Virus record (IMG/VR): IMGVR_UViG_3300025141_000494
Span: 1 to 30,489 of that record
Strand: one strand, 5' to 3'
DNA length: 30,489 nt
Source of the DNA: a virus
Within the stretch, counting starts at the first letter, position 1, and each line of letters opens with the position of its first letter. The position numbers and the translations under genes were made by a program. This document shows positions 6,001 through 23,700 of this stretch, piece by piece. The notes under the pieces are model-generated. The model did no database searches and was not told where the DNA came from. It was given only the letters and a program-made list of their open reading frames with translations.

Positions 6001-9000
6001 TAATATTATTGTTAGTAATATCGAAAAAGATTTGAAAAAGCATCTTGCCAGACCAGGCCGCGGCCCCGATGACGTTCTTCCGAAATATAGTGTACTTGAT
6101 AGAATAGGTATATATGCTAAAGATATAGTAGAAAAAACCTTAGGAACTAAGTCTGAAGAGGAATTAGCTGAGAAGTTGAAGGTTCGAAGCGCGCTAGCCT
6201 ATATGATAGCGGATGAGGGCAAAAAAATATATGACATAATTGTTGATCCTGTTGATGGAATATTTAGAAATGGCAACCCCATTAGCACAGATTTAGAATT
6301 AGATATCTTAATGAATTCAGATACTGACTTTTATACTCAATACAAGGATAAAGTTAACGATGATATAACTGTAAATCCAGTTAAATTTCAAAATTTATAT
6401 CACATGGGTGACTACGAATACGTTGTTGACGTTCGTTTCCATGAAAACATATATACATTAAATTACGGCTCTGGAGAAATACAGGATCTTTATGGCCCCG
6501 CCGGCCGAGAGATACACCTTTATACTCCAGAAATGGACGGCCCTCTGACACTTGTTCCTGGAGAAGACGAACAGGGCGCCCAGCTTCCCTACACAGGCAT
6601 GCCTGCTGGAGGCTACGAAGCTGCCCCCCTCGGCCAGCCAGTTCAATTCACTAGCCCCGCTCAACTAGGCCTCACGACGGACGTCGAATGGAGGGGAGTA
6701 TCTTTTGCAGACCACACACCTACCTACGCTAAAAGACATATTAACATGTACGGGTTTAATGAGACTCCTATTGTAAAAAAGAAGAAATCAAAAAACTTTT
6801 TTCATTCTTTGCCTTACAACTATTACGAAGGAACCTGTGGTTTTGATACTGGGAAACCAGAAGCTTTTGTAACAGGTCCCGCTGACGTGGGCGTCGTGCC
6901 GGATCCCGACGTCGTGGGCGTCGCGCCGGATCCCGACGTCGTGGGCGTCGCGCCGGATCCCGACGTCGTGCCGGCTCCGCCCGAGCCCGGTGACATGGAC
7001 GGCGCCGGCATGCCGGCCGACGAGGACACCGCCGGCTCTTGGACTGTCATCAACCCGTATATGCCACCAGAAGAAAAAGGCCCAATGTGCGATTATTCAA
7101 CGCCTTTTCTTAAATATGTTGAGCCCTCTATAATCAATGGTCGTCGTGATTTTCACGAAACGGTTCACAACTATGGACTCCGCGCCCTTGGCAATTTAGG
7201 CGATAAATCACATCATCAATATTCAGAATATATTAAAATTAGAGATTTGATGATAACACAATTAGGACGCGCCGACGGATTTAACAAAGAAATGTATAAG
7301 CATACCCAATCTGGCAATGCGTTCAACGGTAATTTTGGAAATATAACTTTTCAACCTTATGTCAAGGTGGTCGACTGGACTCCTGAAGAAATAGCACAAA
7401 ATCAAAGCAAGTATGAAGTTACTTTATACCAGGAAAATGCCGGCGGCAATATTTCTATCGAGCCATGCGCGAATCCACATAACATAATACATATACCGTT
7501 TGGTGAATATGCTCAAGCCTTTTTTGAAAGTATGAACGCTACTCGCAATAACAACATATTTAGTGCTTACATATATGATTATATACCGCTTACTATTTGG
7601 AGTAATTTTTATAGCGAGATATTTTTAAAGCTGCTTTATACTGACTTTGCAGATACAATGAAGCCGTTTTATGAAAAGTATGGTTTTGAGCCCTTTTTCA
7701 AAGAGATCAAGTTTGGCATACGGCTTAGCTACTCCACAACTTTGTCAGTAGATGAATCTATCCCTGAATTAGACTTAAAAGAGTTTATGAGAAATTCATT
7801 TGGGCATGGCCAACCCGATACTTTGGGTACTCATCCTGTACCTGCTTGGGGATTAAAGAGCAGTAAAACATTCTTTAGTCATAGGCCATATTATGTTGAC
7901 GCTCCCCCAGAAAATGGCCAGTGGGATACTGCTGAGTACCCTGAGGCAAAATTTAAAATTTGTGATGAACTACAAATACCCGTTGTTGAAATTGAGAGGA
8001 ACATTGTATCTGTTCCAAATGCATATTCTTTTTTGGTTGGCGAGAACAATACTTTAATTTCTTTAGAGAAATTAGGTATTTATGATGAGGGCACACACGC
8101 TCTTTTTGGAGAAACGCTCACAGATCTTTCCTTCCCACAGATCAGCCCTGAGACGAAAGCAGCCAAGTCTGAAAAAATACTTTCTAAAAAAGACCTTGAT
8201 TCTGGCTGGCAAGAAGGTAAACCCCATCCGGATTCGCCCGAGCCCGGATCGGTCTTTGATGCAGGCGCTTATTCAGATCAATACATACAATCCGACTGTG
8301 TTGACCGCCATGGTTTTGACGTCAACACGGATCCGAACTCGTCCCCGATTACACAAGAACAATGGAATCAAGCAGCACTCAGGTACGACCAAGCGAAACT
8401 CATTATAAGACTAGCTCCACAATTTAGCAAGGAATTATTTGAATATTTTAATGGAAATAAAGGCCTGCTCAACTCGGATGTTTTCGCTGATGGTTACAAA
8501 CAGCACATCGGCGTCCAATTCGGTGAGACCATCCCGGTTAACAACGCTTCATGGCCCGAAGAAGAGAACGATGAACCGGAGTGGGGTGGCGGCGGCGGCA
8601 CCCTCGACGTCGGCGGCCAGTGGGCGCCCCCGAACGCCGCGCCCGATGCCTCTAGTTATAATCCCAGGGGTATCATCAACGATCGTCGATGGACATACAC
8701 TCTAGGAGACTCTGACAGATGCAAATCCCCGGAATGGTGGACCGATGAACACAACGATCCCACCGGATGGGGATATGTTGAAGATCTTCCCTCGGGCGAA
8801 TATTCCCCGATGCTGAAATTTGATTATATGGTTAATCCGATTTGGGGTAACTATCCGTCGTATACACCAAGAGACTATCCAGAGTATATCGCAGTTTATG
8901 TGCATAGACATGAGTGGGATTTTCAAGGCCTTGACGAGCCTCTTACGGAAAAAGATCCGGAATTCAGTGCCTTCTATAAAAAACAATACCAGGCCTGGCA

Positions 9001-13011: not shown

Positions 13012-14969
13012 TGGCTATTAAAAAGTATATTGCTAGCTTGGACAACACTATAACTAATGCGAAGGGAGTAGACAAACCTACCCGCGCAACTGGCTCGAAC
13101 ATGGGCGCAGCAGATATACTAGAGACTTTTTCAATTTATGGTTTGGCCACGACTTCTTCAGTCGAATTGTCCCGTATACTGATACAGTTTCCTGTCGACA
13201 AAATATCATCTGATAGAGCAGCTGGTACAATACCCGAACCTGGGAAAGTCAATTTCTTTTTAAGAATGTTTAATGCAAAACACTCAGAGCAATTACCAGA
13301 AAACTTTACTGTTAACGTTTTGGCTGTATCTTCTTCATGGCAAGAGGGTTCAGGCTTGGACATGGAAGGCTACACAGATAAAACAAAAGATAATATCAAA
13401 GGTTCGAATTGGAAGAATGCAAATAATAATTTTGTACAAGCCACGTTGATCGACGCGATTGATACCACAGGTGTTGCTATTAATGATGCATTTACAATGA
13501 CTGTTCCCGCCGCCGCCGGCGGCGACGCAACCGCCCATGTGTTCAATTTTGTTGATACTGCAGTCGCCGGTGCCGGTTCTAATAATTTTGGAATTGCGTT
13601 AGATACTGCAAACACACCAGCCAAGGCCGCGACAGCTGTTGTAGATGCTATAAATGGAACTGTAAACAGCGCCGTGGGATATAACGGAGGAGCCAATGGC
13701 ACGGTTCTAACAGCCGGGACGATTGGCCTCACAGCGGCCATCACAACGGATGAAACTACTAAGATCACTCTAACCATGGACGACACCGGTACAGCTGGAA
13801 ACGTGGCAAATGTCCTTGCAGCCAATACTGGGTTCGAACCCGCGAGTGACCTTCTTAAAATAGCCGCTTTTACTGTCGGCGACGGCGCTTGGACAACAGT
13901 TGGAGGTGATTATCATACGTCTCCTTACGTTTCTGGTTCTACTATGCCAAATTATACTTTTACATTTGTAAATGGCGATGAAGATCTCTTACTTGATGTT
14001 TCTTCTGCTGTAGAAGAGTGGCTGGCCAACAATAAACCAAATTATGGTTTTGGGGTTTTTCTAACCTCTAGTCTTGAAGGTTATGTTTCTAACTCATCGG
14101 GGGATACTGTTGGAGCAATACTTCATAATCCATCCGGACAACAAAAAAGTTGTTATACAAAAAGATTTTTTTCCAGATCTAGTGAATTTTTCTTTAAACA
14201 ACCGGTTATTGAAGCTAGATGGGATTCTAGAGTCATGGACGACAGGGGAAATTTTTATTCTAGTTCATCCATCGCGCCGGCTTTAGACAACTTAAATAAT
14301 CTATATTTATATAACTATATTAGGGGCCGACTAGTCGACATTCCTAGTGCTGAAACATTGGCCGTTAACCTTTATGCCTCTAGCAACGGTGCTCCTTCCG
14401 GACCGAGACTAACTGTTTTGACTGCGTCTAAGGCTAACACTGGTGTTTATAAGGTTACTGGTTCAATCAACACAACTTCTTCTATAATACATGATGTATG
14501 GTCAGGAAGCGTGGGAGGAGAATACAAAACTGGAACGATATCAGTTAAAAACTTTAATAATACTTCCGTACTTAATTCAGATGATTATACACAATTTACT
14601 ACAAAAATAATTAATCTAAAATCAAAATATGCGAAAGACGAAATAGCAAGATTTAGAGTATTTACAAGACCAAGAAATTATAGCCCCACAATTTATACTG
14701 TTGCTAGCACAGAAATGCAACATGTAATCATTCCCAGCGCTTCTTTTGAAATAGTCAGAATAGCTGATAATAATAAGATGATTAATAATTCTACTGGCAG
14801 CTCAACAAATCACACCTATATGTCATATGATAGTTCAGGAAGTTATTTTGATTTAGACATGAAATTGTTGGAGCCAGGCTACATGTACGGAATAAAATTC
14901 TTATTTTATTGTTCAAATGGCTGGAGAAAACAAGAAGAAACATTTAATTTTAGGGTTGAAAATAACTAA
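13011..14969 (+). CDS. DNRLRE-type beta-sandwich virion protein with inserted module
   Basis: This 652-aa protein starts at an ATG overlapping the previous stop, with GAAGGGA about 10 bases upstream. Residues about 1-142 hold the first half of a DNRLRE-like domain: SRILIQFPVDKI, a surface loop, then VLAVSSSWQEGSGLD. The second half resumes around residue 290 with GAWTTVGGDYHTSP and LLLDVSSAVEEWL, then GFGVFLTSS. Between them, residues about 143-280 are a separate Ala/Thr/Gly-rich module with GC-rich codons (listed separately). Next come KRFFSRSSEFFFKQPVIEARW and DDRGNFYSSSSIAPALDNLN, which I recall as strongly conserved in large T4-like aquatic phages, and then C-terminal beta-rich domains ending NFRVENN. 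It lies between the J-like and I-like wedge genes and is probably a baseplate-associated or peripheral tail protein. DNRLRE domains in cell-surface proteins support an adhesive or fibrous role; the phage function is inferred. Confidence 0.85.
   Translation: MAIKKYIASLDNTITNAKGVDKPTRATGSNMGAADILETFSIYGLATTSSVELSRILIQFPVDKISSDRAAGTIPEPGKVNFFLRMFNAKHSEQLPENFTVNVLAVSSSWQEGSGLDMEGYTDKTKDNIKGSNWKNANNNFVQATLIDAIDTTGVAINDAFTMTVPAAAGGDATAHVFNFVDTAVAGAGSNNFGIALDTANTPAKAATAVVDAINGTVNSAVGYNGGANGTVLTAGTIGLTAAITTDETTKITLTMDDTGTAGNVANVLAANTGFEPASDLLKIAAFTVGDGAWTTVGGDYHTSPYVSGSTMPNYTFTFVNGDEDLLLDVSSAVEEWLANNKPNYGFGVFLTSSLEGYVSNSSGDTVGAILHNPSGQQKSCYTKRFFSRSSEFFFKQPVIEARWDSRVMDDRGNFYSSSSIAPALDNLNNLYLYNYIRGRLVDIPSAETLAVNLYASSNGAPSGPRLTVLTASKANTGVYKVTGSINTTSSIIHDVWSGSVGGEYKTGTISVKNFNNTSVLNSDDYTQFTTKIINLKSKYAKDEIARFRVFTRPRNYSPTIYTVASTEMQHVIIPSASFEIVRIADNNKMINNSTGSSTNHTYMSYDSSGSYFDLDMKLLEPGYMYGIKFLFYCSNGWRKQEETFNFRVENN
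13437..13850 (+). other. Inserted beta-rich module, copy A (residues about 143-280 of the DNRLRE protein)
   Basis: The segment has the order: Phe-rich strand (HVFNFVDT), a strand ending FGIALDT, a helix with AKAATAVVDAINGTV, then GTIGLTAAIT, KITLTMDDT and GTAGN. The same order (F-x-F strand, V-x-IGL strand, helix with VNAING, then I-x-L strand and Asn-rich end) occurs in the 1959-aa protein at 22474-22797. It interrupts the DNRLRE fold between its WQEG and WTTVGG parts. Base composition rises sharply here: the stretch at 13505-13530 is almost pure GCC/GGC/GAC codons, against AT-rich codons on both sides. It is best read as an acquired domain insertion. Confidence 0.6.
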
Positions 14970-14987
14970 TACGGCTGGGTTTCTCTT

Positions 14988-17900
14988 ATGGGTATAAAAG
15001 ATTTATTTGATAAAGGTTATTCGTTAAAATCTATAAAGAAGAAAAATCAAGAAAATATTCGCGAAGATCTTGAATCTGTAAGATATATTGACGCATATGC
15101 AAAAAGAAAACATAGATTTTTTCCTGATGTAGATTTTACGACTGCTTCTAACTTTGCCCGCTTCGGGTTAGCCGAAGAGTATTACGATACTGCAGTTAAG
15201 CGCATATATCAAACTTATCCTTATGATGGTTCTAGAGCAGAGAAACTAGAATGGGAAAACGAAGGTACATACTTAGATATCTTTATTTTCGAAAATGAGT
15301 ATCCCAGAACTAATGGATTTGTTACTTTTAATAGTATTTCTCATACATATACCTCTACTGAAGAGGGTAATATTTACAGCAGTAGTGCACCTCAGTATAT
15401 TTACTTTACCGGCGGCCCACATGCAGATACGCAAGGTGATTATAAGAGCAATATTACAGCAGGGCCGAGTCATAAAGGTGCCTCTAAAACAAATATCTAT
15501 GATACAGCTAGTCAAAGAACAAATAATCTTGAAATAGACCCAGATAAGGGTTTGACAGTTGAATTTTGGATGAAAAAAGATGGTTGGGCTTCTGAAGACG
15601 TTTTAAAATATGAATATATATTCAATATTGCTGCTTCTGGATCAACGGGGGATGATTATGGAAATTTAAGAATATATTCTTATGGTCTTGGCAGTGGAAA
15701 GAGTCACTTGATATTAAAAATAGAATCGGGGTCGTCTGACGTGTATACTGCCACTCACGCTACTGGATTGGATGATGTTGCGGATGGAAAGTGGCATCAC
15801 TATGCTGTTACTTATAAGCAAGGCAATTCAAAACTTTATGTTGACGGAACACACCAATCTGAACAAACTGATTCATCAATTAACTCTATATCCGGTAAAT
15901 TAATTGCCGCCCTGGGCGCCCTCGCATCACCTAGGGGAACTAGCCTCAGTCTGGCCGGCCGCGGCTGGGGAAACATAGTTTCTACTTCTTTCGATGAATT
16001 TAGATATTGGAAAACAGAGAGAGACGCACAACAAATTGGCAGATATTACCGTGATCAAATTGGCGGAGGCACAAACACTGACAACGTAAAATATGATGAT
16101 GTTACCAACAAGGTTGATTTGGGGGTGTATTACAAGTTTAACGAAGGAATAACGGGAGTGTCCACGACAGACTCTGTAATATTGGATTATTCTGGAAGAA
16201 TTTCTAATGGAACTTTTATCAACTACTCTTCTGGTTGCAGAAATATAAATTCTGCTATTGTTCTCTCCTCTGCCGCAACAAAAGAATTTCAAGATCCAAT
16301 TATATATTCCTATCATCCTGACGTCTCTACTTTACTAGAAAATAAGAAAAAAATAGGCAGAATGCATGATCATACTAATCCTGCTTCATTATATAAATCA
16401 GTTCCAGGGTGGATTTTAGAAGAGGATGAGTCAGAATCTAATCATTTAAAATATTTAATGCAAATTCTTTCTAGCTATTTTGACGATTTGTATATGCAAA
16501 TAGAAAAGCTGCCTAATTTAAGAAATATTAATTATCCAGATGATACTAAATACGAAAAGCCACTGCCTTTTGCCGAACGACTTTTAGAATCTAGAGGCTA
16601 TGATGCACCAGAATTATTTGCTCACGCCTCTGCCCTGGCTCAATTTTTAGATAGAGATGAAAAAAAGCTTTTTGAAAAGAAGCTTTATGAAGTAAAAAAT
16701 ATAATTTATCAAAACATATATAACAACCTTGTATACATACAAAAATCGAAAGGAACCTACAAGTCGTTAAGAAACTTTTTAAGGTGTTTTGGTGTTGACG
16801 AGGAGTTAGTAAAGCTTAATCTTTATGCAAAAGATGATGAATACGAATTAAAAGATAACTTTGTTAATACAGCTTTACGCAAAAAGTTCATTGATTTTGA
16901 CGATTCTGAAACACGCATGGACTCCACAGGGAACCGGGCAGGAGCCTTTTCTGCTACCGCATATCAGTATAAAAATCCGTCTGTCAACAACACAATTTCT
17001 TATATCCCAGCAATATCTGCTAATCAAATGTCCGGCGCCGCAATGACAATTGAAGCAGAAGTTATTTTTCCAAAAAGAGCGTATAATGATGTGAATCATC
17101 AAGTTTTTCCCTCTTTAAACTCTTCTATCTTCGGCATGCATGCAGTAAAAGAATCTGACGAAGACCTATCATATGCTACTGATGACACAATAAATTTTAA
17201 TTTTCGATTTGAAAAAGCAGATACAGATAAAAATAGCGGATTGTTTTCGCTAGTATCCTCGACGTCAAATGACATCCTCTCTACCTTAAAATCAGAGAAA
17301 TACTTAGGTGTATATGACAACCAGAAGTGGAATTTGGCTTTTAGATTGAGGCCCACAAAAAATACGTTTTCTAATTTGGTGAGTGCTTCTCTTAGCCCTG
17401 CTAGCTCAGCTTACACTTATGAAATATATGGAAACAATTATTTATCAGATATAATACAGGAAGAATTTGCTGTGTCTGGTACAATAAGCCTCTCACAAGC
17501 TTCAAAATTCTTTTCAGCACCAAAAAGAATTTTTATTGGCGCCAAAAGAACTAATTTTACTGGAAGTGTCCAGCTTCCATCCGATGTTAAAGTCTCTTCT
17601 GTTCGGGCGTGGTATAGCTACCTAGATAACGATATGATGAGGGGACATGGTAGGTTTTCTGATACATATGGAGTTACTCAGCCATTAAAGAATTCTAACC
17701 TAACTGATGCAGGTGGGTTTTTAGGTACAAAAATACCACAAATTGAAACTTTAATATTAAACTGGAGCATGGACAACCTGACGGGTTCTGATGCTAACGG
17801 CCAGTTTCTTATTAACGATTTTTCATCCGGATCTAGTGACGTTTCAAAATATGGAACATTAACTCCTGTTTTAGAGAAGAACTATTCTGGCCGCGGCGAC

Positions 17901-20729
17901 TTTTTTGTCTCTACCGAGGCTTATCGTGATCAAGCAATTGACATAGAGTTTGTGCAAACTGCTAAACAAAAATTACCAGAAATTGTTAATAGCGATGATA
18001 TGATAAAAATCTTGAATAGGCAAGATGATGTTCAGTTCACTAGAGAGACAACTTATGTACAACATCTTTTATCGATAGAAAAAAGCATGTATCAAGTTAT
18101 TTCAGATGAAATGATGAGATTTTTCTCATCAGTTTCTGAATTTAACAACCTTATTGGTGAACCCATTAATCGTTATCGTCCATATTATAAAAAAATGGAA
18201 AAGCTAAGAGAGATGTTCTTCCGAAACGTCGAATCTGACCTCGATTTAGAAAAATTTATTGAATATTATAAGTGGATAGATGACGCTGTAACACTAATGA
18301 TAGCACAACTAATACCTGCATCAGCGAATAGCGTTGAACTATTAAGAAATATGGTTGAAAGCCATGTTTTGGAGAGAAATAAATATTGGACCAAATTTCC
18401 AACGATTGATACTGTGCCTCATAATCCAATAGCTTCTTTAAAAGGAATAGAAGAATACAAATATAATTGGAAATTTGGGCATGCCCCAGTAGGAGCCTCC
18501 CAAAACAGTAATCAGAGCCAAAATTGCTTATGGTGGAAACAAAGAGCTGATCGTGCAGGTGTTTTATCTTCTGGTATTGCTGGAGTAGATTCCAGTAAGC
18601 ATGAAATATTAAAAACAATAGTGACAGAAGTATCTGGCACGACACCAACATTAAAAACACCCGCTGGAGCAAAATATGTTGCGAGCTATTATCCAAATAG
18701 GAGCCTCAGTCGGCCATATGACATGGAAGCAAGTAGATTATTAAATCTAAAAGGAGGCTCGAACCCCAACCACACCAAACGACATGATTTATACAAGAAC
18801 ATTATAAAGTGGGGCAGCGATGACGATTTTATTTATATTGATGCTGATAGTGAGACGCCGAAAGTTGACTGTAACGACAAAATAATACCTGATGAAATTA
18901 ATAAAAAGCTTTTTAGAGTTAAAACCTTGACAATGCTCGCAGATCAAACAATCGGATCAGACGCGACCGGCGGTGGCGCTAATGATAAAAATTATGATGA
19001 TGCAAAATCTGCTCTTTTGTTGCCTTTTAGCATGTATTCTTCTTCAATTGATACTGGATATAGGCAAGCATATGCCGGCGGCAGTATGCCTAAAATTGAA
19101 TTTGCAAACATGCATGACGATAAATATGGCTTTGACACAGAAGTGCCAATGCAGGGCCCATTTACTGAAAAGTACGTCGGCGGGTTGCAACATCGGCATG
19201 TTGACATAAATAAAGGTACAGACGGACAATTAACCAGACCAGAAGGCTGGCATTTGCAAGAGTTCATGGACAATTCAGGATCTCCGGTAACCATTTTATA
19301 CGAGCAGTTTCTCGGGGCAACAACGACCGCGACAACCGACGTTAACATTCTATCATTGCCAGCTGATTCAACATCGCCAGATCCAAGTCCTTATGAATAT
19401 TGGCGAAATGGTGTTGGCACTGACAATCAGTGGACATTCTTGCAAGGCACAACCCCATCGGTGGGAACCGGGCCCACTACAGCTAACAGGCATGCTTATT
19501 GCGAAGTTTTGCCATCTAAAGTAGGGCAAACATTTGGATTAGTGACTCCCTTAATTGACTTGTTAGAATATGATGTAAGCTCAACTATATTTTTTCAATT
19601 TAGCTATCACATGCATGGCCTTCATATTGGTAATCTAAAAGTTCAAGCATCCAGTGATCCCAATTTTCAAATTGGTGTTGAAAACTTATTAGTAGATTGG
19701 GGTAGTTTTAACAGTACTGTTATATCTGGGCAACAACATACAAATGCAGCTGATGGTTTTTCAACAGCGCGCGCGTCATCCACACCTGGCAACGGCCTAG
19801 CTAGTTGGCTTGGAAAGCGTTTTTATATACGATTTTTGTATACTGCTGGGATTTCTCATTTAGGCGACTGTGCAATTCGTGAACCACAGGTGTTCGAACA
19901 CAGCCTCGGCGTTGAAAGGAATTCATTTAAGCTTCTCAATCCAACTCACGATAACCACCACAGACCTTCTGCAATTTACACTCGTCAACAATATGCAAAA
20001 CGTCCTGTAAATATTCGTAATATTCATATGACCGGTAATTCACCCACAGTTGCAGGAAATTATCTTAATAGATATGAATATATAAGCACGGTAAGTCCTG
20101 AGGCTAATGATCCATTTTTTGTTAAGAATATACATCAAATTAAGTCAACAACGCCAGAATTATTGATGATACACAAGATAGAAAATCTTTTGAGCACCCC
20201 CCCCGGCGCATATAGGACAAACCTAAGTTATCGAAACTTCCAGCTTCCTGATCGATCATATTTAGCAGACTCTATTAAAAACAAAACAAGAATTATGACA
20301 AGGTTTAGCTCTCCAGGTGGCTTTGAGACACTATCGCGTGGCTTCCTAGACCCAGCGCACGAGACTTACGCTGTTAATAATGTCATGACATACAGGAATA
20401 TGTCATCAAGAATGATATATAATTCTCAACTTCAAGCACATTGTGGTAGATTTGGCGTCAGCACACACGAAGCTGCAACAGCCAGAGTATTTGGAAGTGA
20501 GACGTCAGGAACCATCAATTCTACTGATTATACAATCGTCGGCGATGCATCAAAACACAAACACCATAGAAACAATATCGAAAGGATAGAATTTACTGGT
20601 GATTCTCCAAATCCTGGTACTGCTAACACGGTCTTCGTCACGGCCTCCTCATATGATAACGCTTTTATTTCTCATATGATACCAAGAACAGAACAGCAAA
20701 CAAGATGGATAACAGGATCATTAATTTAG
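14988..20729 (+). CDS. Large baseplate/tail protein: gpI/gp7-like helical core with two LamG-like domains and a MAM-like domain
   Basis: This is a 1913-aa protein. Residues about 178-355 form a LamG/concanavalin A-like jelly roll (TVEFWMKKDG, DGKWHHYAVTY, LYVDGTH, FDEFRYWKTERDAQQI). Residues about 466-615 are helical, with GWILEEDESESNHLKYLMQ and YIQKSKGTYKSLRNFLRCFG, resembling phage tail protein I and the T4 gp7 core. A second ConA-like domain spans about 670-885 (MTIEAEVIFP to VRAWYSYLDND). A helical block follows at about 1026-1145 (EPINRYRPYYKKMEKLREMFF, then YKWIDDAVTLMI). Residues about 1435-1640 look MAM-like (YEYWRNGVG, LVTPLIDL, IFFQFSYHMHG, GNLKVQ). The tail contains RFSSPGGFETLSRGFLDPAH, conserved in large phage virion proteins as I recall. 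The start lacks a good Shine-Dalgarno, but it is the first ATG after the previous stop, 18 bases away. The gene order suggests the third wedge component fused to receptor-binding or glycan-binding domains. Confidence 0.85.
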   Translation: MGIKDLFDKGYSLKSIKKKNQENIREDLESVRYIDAYAKRKHRFFPDVDFTTASNFARFGLAEEYYDTAVKRIYQTYPYDGSRAEKLEWENEGTYLDIFIFENEYPRTNGFVTFNSISHTYTSTEEGNIYSSSAPQYIYFTGGPHADTQGDYKSNITAGPSHKGASKTNIYDTASQRTNNLEIDPDKGLTVEFWMKKDGWASEDVLKYEYIFNIAASGSTGDDYGNLRIYSYGLGSGKSHLILKIESGSSDVYTATHATGLDDVADGKWHHYAVTYKQGNSKLYVDGTHQSEQTDSSINSISGKLIAALGALASPRGTSLSLAGRGWGNIVSTSFDEFRYWKTERDAQQIGRYYRDQIGGGTNTDNVKYDDVTNKVDLGVYYKFNEGITGVSTTDSVILDYSGRISNGTFINYSSGCRNINSAIVLSSAATKEFQDPIIYSYHPDVSTLLENKKKIGRMHDHTNPASLYKSVPGWILEEDESESNHLKYLMQILSSYFDDLYMQIEKLPNLRNINYPDDTKYEKPLPFAERLLESRGYDAPELFAHASALAQFLDRDEKKLFEKKLYEVKNIIYQNIYNNLVYIQKSKGTYKSLRNFLRCFGVDEELVKLNLYAKDDEYELKDNFVNTALRKKFIDFDDSETRMDSTGNRAGAFSATAYQYKNPSVNNTISYIPAISANQMSGAAMTIEAEVIFPKRAYNDVNHQVFPSLNSSIFGMHAVKESDEDLSYATDDTINFNFRFEKADTDKNSGLFSLVSSTSNDILSTLKSEKYLGVYDNQKWNLAFRLRPTKNTFSNLVSASLSPASSAYTYEIYGNNYLSDIIQEEFAVSGTISLSQASKFFSAPKRIFIGAKRTNFTGSVQLPSDVKVSSVRAWYSYLDNDMMRGHGRFSDTYGVTQPLKNSNLTDAGGFLGTKIPQIETLILNWSMDNLTGSDANGQFLINDFSSGSSDVSKYGTLTPVLEKNYSGRGDFFVSTEAYRDQAIDIEFVQTAKQKLPEIVNSDDMIKILNRQDDVQFTRETTYVQHLLSIEKSMYQVISDEMMRFFSSVSEFNNLIGEPINRYRPYYKKMEKLREMFFRNVESDLDLEKFIEYYKWIDDAVTLMIAQLIPASANSVELLRNMVESHVLERNKYWTKFPTIDTVPHNPIASLKGIEEYKYNWKFGHAPVGASQNSNQSQNCLWWKQRADRAGVLSSGIAGVDSSKHEILKTIVTEVSGTTPTLKTPAGAKYVASYYPNRSLSRPYDMEASRLLNLKGGSNPNHTKRHDLYKNIIKWGSDDDFIYIDADSETPKVDCNDKIIPDEINKKLFRVKTLTMLADQTIGSDATGGGANDKNYDDAKSALLLPFSMYSSSIDTGYRQAYAGGSMPKIEFANMHDDKYGFDTEVPMQGPFTEKYVGGLQHRHVDINKGTDGQLTRPEGWHLQEFMDNSGSPVTILYEQFLGATTTATTDVNILSLPADSTSPDPSPYEYWRNGVGTDNQWTFLQGTTPSVGTGPTTANRHAYCEVLPSKVGQTFGLVTPLIDLLEYDVSSTIFFQFSYHMHGLHIGNLKVQASSDPNFQIGVENLLVDWGSFNSTVISGQQHTNAADGFSTARASSTPGNGLASWLGKRFYIRFLYTAGISHLGDCAIREPQVFEHSLGVERNSFKLLNPTHDNHHRPSAIYTRQQYAKRPVNIRNIHMTGNSPTVAGNYLNRYEYISTVSPEANDPFFVKNIHQIKSTTPELLMIHKIENLLSTPPGAYRTNLSYRNFQLPDRSYLADSIKNKTRIMTRFSSPGGFETLSRGFLDPAHETYAVNNVMTYRNMSSRMIYNSQLQAHCGRFGVSTHEAATARVFGSETSGTINSTDYTIVGDASKHKHHRNNIERIEFTGDSPNPGTANTVFVTASSYDNAFISHMIPRTEQQTRWITGSLI
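20197..20204 (+). repeat. C8 homopolymer run inside coding sequence
   Basis: Eight consecutive C (ACC CCC CCC GGC, Thr-Pro-Pro-Gly) occur in an AT-rich gene, about 175 codons before its stop. One-base slippage here would truncate the conserved C-terminus of the 1913-aa protein. Confidence 0.95.
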
Positions 20730-20766
20730 GATATAATCTAATTATAGGAAAGGAATGAGGTAAAAA
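20730..20766 (+). promoter_or_regulatory. Leader of the 1959-aa gene with extended purine-rich Shine-Dalgarno
   Basis: The 37-base gap contains TATAAT at 20732-20737 and a purine-rich ribosome-binding stretch AGGAAAGGAATGAGG at 20746-20760, six bases before the ATG at 20767. This is the strongest translation signal in the window apart from the AAGGAGG at 11194. No convincing -35 box lies at the right distance, so a promoter is only a possibility; the ribosome-binding site is clear and fixes the start. Confidence 0.65.
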
Positions 20767-23700
20767 ATGGCATTAAGCGGTTCATTAAATTTTTTAAATT
20801 CTAGCGTAACTGGGTCTCCGAATATTAATGTAGACTTTGCGGGTCTCAATACATTAATAGTAGACCCTATAACCGCCTCTTTGAACCTCCTGGGGCATCC
20901 CGTGAGTGATACCGCAACGCCAATTGATTCTGAGGTTTATTATAATTCGCTCATAGATCCAATTGGCGGGCCAGAACCAAATCAATTAAACAGCCTGCTG
21001 TTAAATCGCAACGGACCATATCAACATCCTATGTGGAAACAATGGAGGGGGGGAGATCATCCCGTTGCTAGACATTTGCGCCTAAACAACACAATGTCAA
21101 TTGATTTAAACGATCCGAATGCCAAAATTAGACAACTTAAAAAAGACATATTAATAGAACACCAGCGCGCAATTTTTGATAATCCGATGGACAATGTCGA
21201 TGATTACTTTAGCTGGATTAACCAGATATTGGGTGGAGTATCAGGATTTACTGGTGAAATAGCTAATGAAATTAAAGCTATTTGGCCAGGTAGACCACCA
21301 ACTTTAAAACACTATTATGAACCGGTTTTAACAACTAAACATAAACCTTTTTTGTATACTGTAGAGTTCCCAGCTGGCCCAGGATCCGCTGGCACTGTAT
21401 TGGCGAAAGTTAGACTATCTTTAATGAACCAGATGATGGATTTCTCTAATGAGAAGCTGAATGAGGCCTTACGATTTTCTTCTGGCGATCCTACTACGGG
21501 TTCTGTTATAGAGTCCACTTTCACTGAATATGCAAAAATAAACAAAACTTTTACTAGGACAAATCAGAAAACATATCAACTTTTTTATAATGCGCTCAAT
21601 ACCAATAACCCGTCAGATTTTTTATATTCTGAAAGGATATATCCAAAGGAAATTAATTCATATAGGACTTATAAGCTGCAGCGCCAAAGTTATGAAGAGA
21701 TACCTGGCCTGGGAGATAAAGGTTATGATAAAGCGTTAAGAAATACTTTTTGGAAAGACAGCCAAGGAGGTAATACGCAAGCGGCAACATCTGATGGTAC
21801 CACAAGATTGAGGACAGATGGCACCGCACTGAGTTCATTAGAAATAGAACAGCATACAATATTCAATAGTTCACTAACCCCAGTTAACTGCACCGCCCGA
21901 CAATTAGTATCTAGTTCTTATATTCTGAACCCATCTTGGGGCCAGACTCTTGTAACAACTTCTTTGCATTATGGAATTAACGGCTTAATAGTAGAATATG
22001 CCCCTAACGGTGTCGTCATTAACAGGTACCAAGACATTACTCCTTCAGGCGCTATATTTCAATTGGATTCCTATCAGCCTTATCCGATCTCTCTCCTAAG
22101 CTCGTGGCCGCTAGATGCTAGGGATGATGTATACGATAAGCCATCTTATTTGACTTCTAGCATGGGGGGCAAGGGGCTACAAATTGGCTTAACCCCGCAT
22201 AAGGCTGGAGTGCATACCGTCGTTGATACAGACGGGAATAACATATCGACTAGCCTGTATAATCAGGTCCAGTCAAGGGGCGGGTCACCCATCTCAACTG
22301 GCTCCGTCCTAGGCGCCACCTTGGCATTACATACCGCATCTGCCGGAGAACTAGTATATAGTACAAAACCAACAATATTTTTCTGGAGAAACATCACCGA
22401 TAAGTCTAACAATTATTCTCGTTTGTACTTGAGCGCTTCTTCTTATGCTCACCCAAAACCCGGCATTTTGGGTGATGGGAAGTTCGAGCTTGCAGATCCT
22501 CAAGGCAACAGAGTCGCTTTTCATTTTGGTCGCGACGACTCTTGGCGATCCGACGGCCGAACGGCAACAATTAGTGGTACTACATTCGTCACTATTGGCC
22601 TAGGCGCCAGCGGCCAGCCCGAGGCAGACCCGGATACCATCGCCCTCAGCTTACGTAATTTTGTAAATGCTATTAACGGCGTATCATCTTACAATAATGG
22701 CTTAACATTAAATATAAATGCTTCACGAGAGAACTATACAATTAAACTCATTCCCCATACTTATAATGTTGGACAGTCTATTAGAATTCCTAAATATGAT
22801 GCGCATTTTTCAACTTGGTTTACAGCCAGCACAGAAGTGGTCGCCTTCGGTACCGACCCCAGCACTGGTATGTCTATCCCAGCCGGCGATCACTTTCAAG
22901 GCCAGAACAGCGGCAGCATTAGCCGTTCAGGTCAAATTATGTCTCTTCTTGATGACTCTGTCCAGGGCTATAATCGCCCAACTGCTTCTCTACAATACAA
23001 CCGACATACGTTTCCATATAACACGCCGTTCTATGCAACCAACAGAGTCCGAGGCAGGAATCCTTTTTATGATTCATACAATGATTTTTCAGACAGCGTT
23101 AGGCTCATAGGACGAGATTATTCTATTTTACCGGAATATCGATATTCTGACCATATGGATTATTATCACGAAAATTATGATGTCGGCGAAACTTCAAGGG
23201 CCTTGTATACTTTTTGGCCTATAGGCACTGCCCTTGATGGATCCGCAGGGCCAGGAGCTTTTAAACGCAACCCCCTTGGTATTACTCCTGTTGCCGGTGG
23301 CGTACCAGGCCAAAAAAACATGGGAGAGCATACCGAACCCGGAGGCATGGAAAAATTTAAGGCTAATTTTTTGGTCCTCGACGGCGCCTTTATTACCTCC
23401 AGCGCCACCGCAAATGTATATGACGAACTCGCTGCGAGATACGAATATGACGACGTCGAAGGTTCGGTCGCAACGACTCCGCTACTCGACGGCCTAGGCG
23501 CCGAGCTGCCACGGCGCTCTTATAAAAGTGATAGGACAAGCATAGATTTTGATGGAAAATATGTTAATACTGATTCCATGATTAATTTTTCTAATTTATT
23601 AGATCAAGGTAACCAGGGATTTTTTAACGATATCGATACAATTCCTGATGAAATTAATTTTGTTTCTCATGTGGTTAAAAAATTCCTACCGAGAAATGGG

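Follow-up and report, generated by a model that had tools for sequence, protein, structure and literature searches.

Two unrelated virion proteins encoded in a 30,489-nucleotide stretch of DNA from an uncultivated virus (an IMG/VR record; hereafter, the window) each contain a segment with a similar order of structural elements, which raises the question of whether the same small module was inserted into both. A preliminary description of this DNA had proposed exactly that, adding that the first insert splits a recognisable DNRLRE domain. Our analysis indicates that the two segments (P0001, from insert 1, and P0002, from insert 2) very probably belong to a single divergent family of domains, which we name the AIN module and which has been inserted, each time as a whole, into loops of the contractile-tail and baseplate proteins found in uncultivated tailed phages. 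The features on which this argument is built are listed in the table.

Table. Coordinates of the two host genes, their inserts and module elements in the window.
Feature	Position	Strand	Basis
Host protein 1, DNRLRE-like virion protein, 652 aa	13011..14969	+	ORF, profile resemblance, homologues L019-L032, L069-L075
Insert 1, type I AIN module, about 150 aa (QATLIDAID...AAFTVGDG)	13437..13886	+	Absent from 7 distinct homologues
AING-ending module helix of insert 1	13617..13658	+	Model residues 61-74
Host protein 2, large virion protein, 1959 aa	20767..26646	+	Homologues L059/L098-L110, G008, G011
Insert 2, about 189 aa, module plus linkers	22399..22965	+	Empty versus filled sites in homologues
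P0002-type AIN module core (GKFELADPQGNRV...RIPKY...)	22477..22830	+	Profile comparison, AlphaFold2 model
AING motif, end of insert 2 module helix	22669..22680	+	AlphaFold2 model

The gene for host protein 1 lies downstream of a gp25-like gene (assigned by reading) and a baseplate-J-like gene (a sub-threshold match). Homologues of its C-terminal half occur on 14 further contigs (L019-L032), which represent seven distinct lineages that are 43-71% identical to the window protein on either flank and that lack the insert: in the alignment, residue ~140 is joined to residue ~293 with few residues between. Insert 1 (residues about 143-292) is a clean in-frame insertion, and its limits match those of a DNA cassette derived from unrelated host genes; the original placement at 13437-13850 was in frame but ended too early, the true insert continuing to about 13886. 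It is found in the window and in near-identical contigs of two other assemblies (3300002514 and 3300025131), and a module occupies the identical site in L069-L072 and L074/L075. Against the DNRLRE profile NF033679, host protein 1 scores 14.5 bits with the module and 21.5 bits with the flanks joined, and homologue L075 scores 28.8 bits. Such an increase is expected if the module interrupts a DNRLRE domain. Host protein 1 falls below the curated cut-off of 34 bits in either form, and DNRLRE denotes a resemblance only.

Host protein 2 matched no known family. Its closest homologue (L098/G002), which is 54% and 46% identical on the two flanks of insert 2 (residues about 545-733), has about 18 residues, reading STKPTIFYAEGTDHKFVTGGYKAPTASLQYN, in place of about 195, and the insert is also missing from L099, L101, L103, L105-L107, G008 and G011. 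Among 13 homologues, a related segment sits at the identical site in L100 and L104 and a divergent one in L110, the others having none there. Elsewhere in this protein family, L102 carries a module of a second subtype (type II) at a different site and L108 a module-like segment, identified by reading, at a third. Here too the placement first given, 22474-22797, was in frame but short of the full insert, which spans about 22399-22965. Homologues without the insert therefore exist for both host proteins. In a tree of the 1959-aa proteins, the window, L100, L104 and L098 form one clade of which L098 lacks the module; because this topology fits an old presence followed by loss in L098, the direction of change at this site is not proven. 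Another homologue, L109, has an additional segment (about 2535-2918) with a helix-like ARICDAV stretch that is possibly a degenerate module, although the profiles did not detect it.

As we define it, the AIN module comprises about 110-150 aa, in which paired strands at the N-terminus are followed by a helix that closes with AIN-G, two further strands and a G-N turn, and many copies of both subtypes terminate in F-T-G-G. The AlphaFold2 model of P0001 (pLDDT 84, pTM 0.83) has strands at residues 18-21, 34-39 and 50-54, a helix at 61-73, and strands at 98-102 and 109-114. That of P0002 (pLDDT 74, pTM 0.73), a model of moderate confidence whose input alignment contains bridging type II sequences, has strands at residues 7-12, 18-24, 35-38 and 41-47, a helix at 58-74, and strands at 86-91 and 94-99. 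The predicted order of elements (strands, AIN helix, strands) is alike in P0001 and P0002, with no sign at this level of different folds, and agrees with the order originally read from the sequence, except that the proposed Asn-rich end fits only the first segment.

Scans with the first segment identified 25 loci, and related copies occur in at least five tail protein families of other uncultured phages. Type I modules are present in tail sheaths (PF04984, phrog_23), at an N-terminal site in L005-L010, L078 and L084 (L004 is a fragment) and at a second site in L011-L013; for L006 and L013, the host protein itself matches the sheath profile (PF04984 / phrog_23). These sites are reciprocal, with L005/L007 having a module at site 1 only and L011/L013 at site 2 only, so that carriers of one site serve as empty-site controls for carriers of the other. 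Type I modules also occur in the baseplate wedge protein L015, whose host sequence matches the PF23786 / phrog_17744 profile, and in two further proteins of no assigned family (L014 and L080). The related type II subtype is found in L120-L122, which by reading belong to the family of the window ORF at 14988-20729, as well as in sheath L123 (by reading) and in L102. The giant ORF of contig G039 (L122), whose stop-to-stop frame is 4063 aa long, contains five modules, two of type I and three of type II. P0001 is 60-64% identical to the modules of sheaths L004/L005, and first searches for relatives of P0002 returned none, its relatives surfacing only through homologues of its host protein. Within the window, we found no copies beyond the two inserts. 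Contig G041 (L143/L141) encodes a separate 859-aa ORF with a pair of type II-like modules, of which the first is well conserved (E 1e-38) and the other divergent (E 7e-9).

At the nucleotide level, identity among the modules in L014, L015 and L080 is 88-91% across 446-457 bp, with an abrupt loss of similarity on both sides, and the genes that hold them have no mutual similarity, flanks included. The 126-kb contig holding L014 (G016) also encodes a homologue of the L015-type wedge protein, about 74% identical in nucleotides and 73% in amino acids, that lacks the module; since the wedge is empty and the cassette lies in another gene, related phages hold one cassette in different genes. The phylogenies of hosts and modules conflict as well. 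In the DNRLRE host tree, the window flanks group with the module-free L019/L020/L022 (97/99), whereas in the module tree the window DNRLRE module groups with sheath modules (95/94), apart from the modules that L069-L072 carry at the same DNRLRE site. This conflict fits a putative separate arrival or replacement of the module, and repeated loss plus replacement may offer an alternative reading. Upstream of the module-bearing gene in L080 (about 1946-2106) is a 77-bp direct repeat with 87% identity.

Because the direct profile comparison of P0001 and P0002 was not significant, the kinship of the two inserts depends on the bridging type II subtype. Type I and type II profiles align with an hhalign score of 38.7 (P 4e-6; best of 100 shuffles, 19.8), and type II aligns with the three-member P0002 group at 38.8 (P 4e-6; best shuffle, 15.3), in each case over most of the module. 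When L102 is omitted, the scores of the bridge are lower (29.9 and 30.9), yet above every shuffle; P0002 alone gives a weak score against type II. Against 20,000 shuffled decoys, the type II profile recovered L100, on which it was not trained, at E 4e-5, and a profile joining the P0002 group to type II recovered two type I copies outside its training set, L122 (E 1e-5) and L080 (E 4e-5). It might be argued that only insert 1 is a genuine mobile module and that insert 2 is an unrelated beta-rich segment made similar by convergence, as would suit the scores of P0002, or of its three-member group, against type I, which stay within the shuffled controls. But convergence would have to produce a nearly full-length bridge from type II to both sides, the recovery of type I copies by a profile containing P0002, and the same predicted order of elements, and we regard it as unlikely. 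Membership of insert 2 in the AIN module family is very likely, and the claim that one module resides in both proteins survives by way of type II, though not as a direct sequence match.

A different possibility is that the segments are ancestral to their host proteins and were repeatedly lost, never inserted, as could be read from the modules at exactly the same site in the DNRLRE homologues L069-L072 and L075 and from the single clade at the 1959-aa site that includes the module-free L098. Loss may indeed explain some of the absences. Nonetheless, unrelated proteins carry the module, its site varies within one protein, the window module is nearer to sheath modules than to DNRLRE modules, and the ~450-bp cassette is more conserved between genes than is the wedge host gene; we consider exclusive ancestry and loss quite improbable. 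Metagenome assembly chimeras would be a concern in that every locus derives from uncultivated contigs, but the same junctions recur in independent assemblies (the window, 3300002514 and 3300025131; L015/L016; L080/L081) and are always in frame, on over twenty contigs, making artefact a scarcely credible source of the pattern. That the insert could be an intein or intron, self-splicing or homing, instead of a domain kept in the protein seems a negligible possibility: such an element would share the clean in-frame insertion into conserved genes, but Pfam and NCBIfam gave no intein or endonuclease match, inspection revealed no HN plus Cys/Ser/Thr junction at the C-terminus, the ORF remains open, and the module has only 150 aa.

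Domain-level insertion into virion proteins, as first proposed, is thus borne out by the insert-free homologues of both hosts and by modules in further tail genes; there is presence and absence at the same sites, in several unrelated virion hosts, and a cassette of ~450 bp in different genes. The AIN module is best read as a promiscuous accessory domain, apparently undescribed, that recombination has spread. The cassette could be moved when co-infecting or resident phages recombine, and its insertion would be tolerated where the module ends fall in an exposed surface loop and are bridged by short linkers. The module would then be displayed outward as an accessory domain, where it might contribute weak cell-surface adhesion or virion stabilisation; a role in surface binding is inferred from phage Ig-like domains. 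That the cassette, with its conserved coding ends (GCNACTGC... to ...TTTACTGG), amounts to a specialised surface-diversification system, with frequent exchange and return to the same loops beyond random domain shuffling, strikes us as rather doubtful.

The AIN module is apparently a new, undescribed domain family, although its behaviour is of a known kind. Pfam, PHROGs and PDB sequences contain nothing that matches it; six queries against 50,697 phage records gave no significant match; Foldseek returned nothing at E≤0.001 for the models of P0001 and P0002; and a pattern scan of 84,980 prokaryote genomes, which rests on one short pattern, yielded no confirmed relative. A limited literature search found no description of the module. 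Weak matches to the tail nozzle of a Cobetia phage (E 2) and to an Erysipelothrix phage (E 0.4) were set aside. The top Foldseek match of the module model, FliD D2-D3, was non-significant (E 4.3, TM 0.34). The Flagellin_IN motif (PF07196) resembles the module in having an A-I-N motif and short strands, but kinship is not supported, as PF07196 matches no module in the 12 contigs with modules or module-like segments.

Ig-like domains are accessory domains of phage virion proteins, sheaths among them; they are exchanged horizontally, presumed to be surface-exposed and proposed to aid adhesion or stability (PMC9230969). The AIN module resembles them in its occurrence in unrelated virion proteins and its variation in presence and absence. 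It differs in its modelled fold, in which strands accompany one central helix instead of the Ig beta-sandwich, and neither Foldseek at E≤0.001 in PDB or BFVD nor Pfam gave an Ig match. Additional tail sheath domains sit away from the tube-contacting part (PMC9230969); unlike these, the module is not confined to sheaths, appearing also in DNRLRE-like proteins, a baseplate wedge and further large virion proteins. Domain mosaicism was described by Smug et al. 2023 as homologous fragments in otherwise unrelated phage proteins, with recent events in baseplate and receptor-binding proteins (PMC10684548). The AIN module is such a fragment, and the similarity of P0001 to sheath modules and of the L014, L015 and L080 cassettes to one another exceeds the 50% identity at which exchange counts as contemporary. 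To that description it adds a domain without a Pfam, PHROG or PDB match, sites that are filled in some phages and empty in others, and a cassette recognisable at the DNA level among related phages. The module is apparently an undescribed, non-Ig addition to the few promiscuous domains that decorate phage tails, and its filled and empty sites, along with near-identical cassettes in different genes, allow direct tests of its movement and of an accessory role in adhesion or stability.

The preliminary description had also reported a jump to GC-rich codons at both inserts, which is not significant: 14% of equal windows in other genes have a GC3 at least as high as that of insert 1, and 17-31% reach or surpass that of insert 2, so both lie inside the range of other windows. 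The total GC of insert 1 is high (top 4%), the only composition measure that stands out. A 27-bp GC-rich tandem repeat (3.1 copies; window 6886-6970) codes for (VGVAPDPDV)n within a 3576-aa ORF. The 1913-aa virion protein encoded at 14988-20729 has a Laminin-G/ConA-lectin domain near its N-terminus (PF13385, E 4.5e-13; residues 177-350) and a weak MAM-like match at 1472-1556, both of which are further candidate binding domains.
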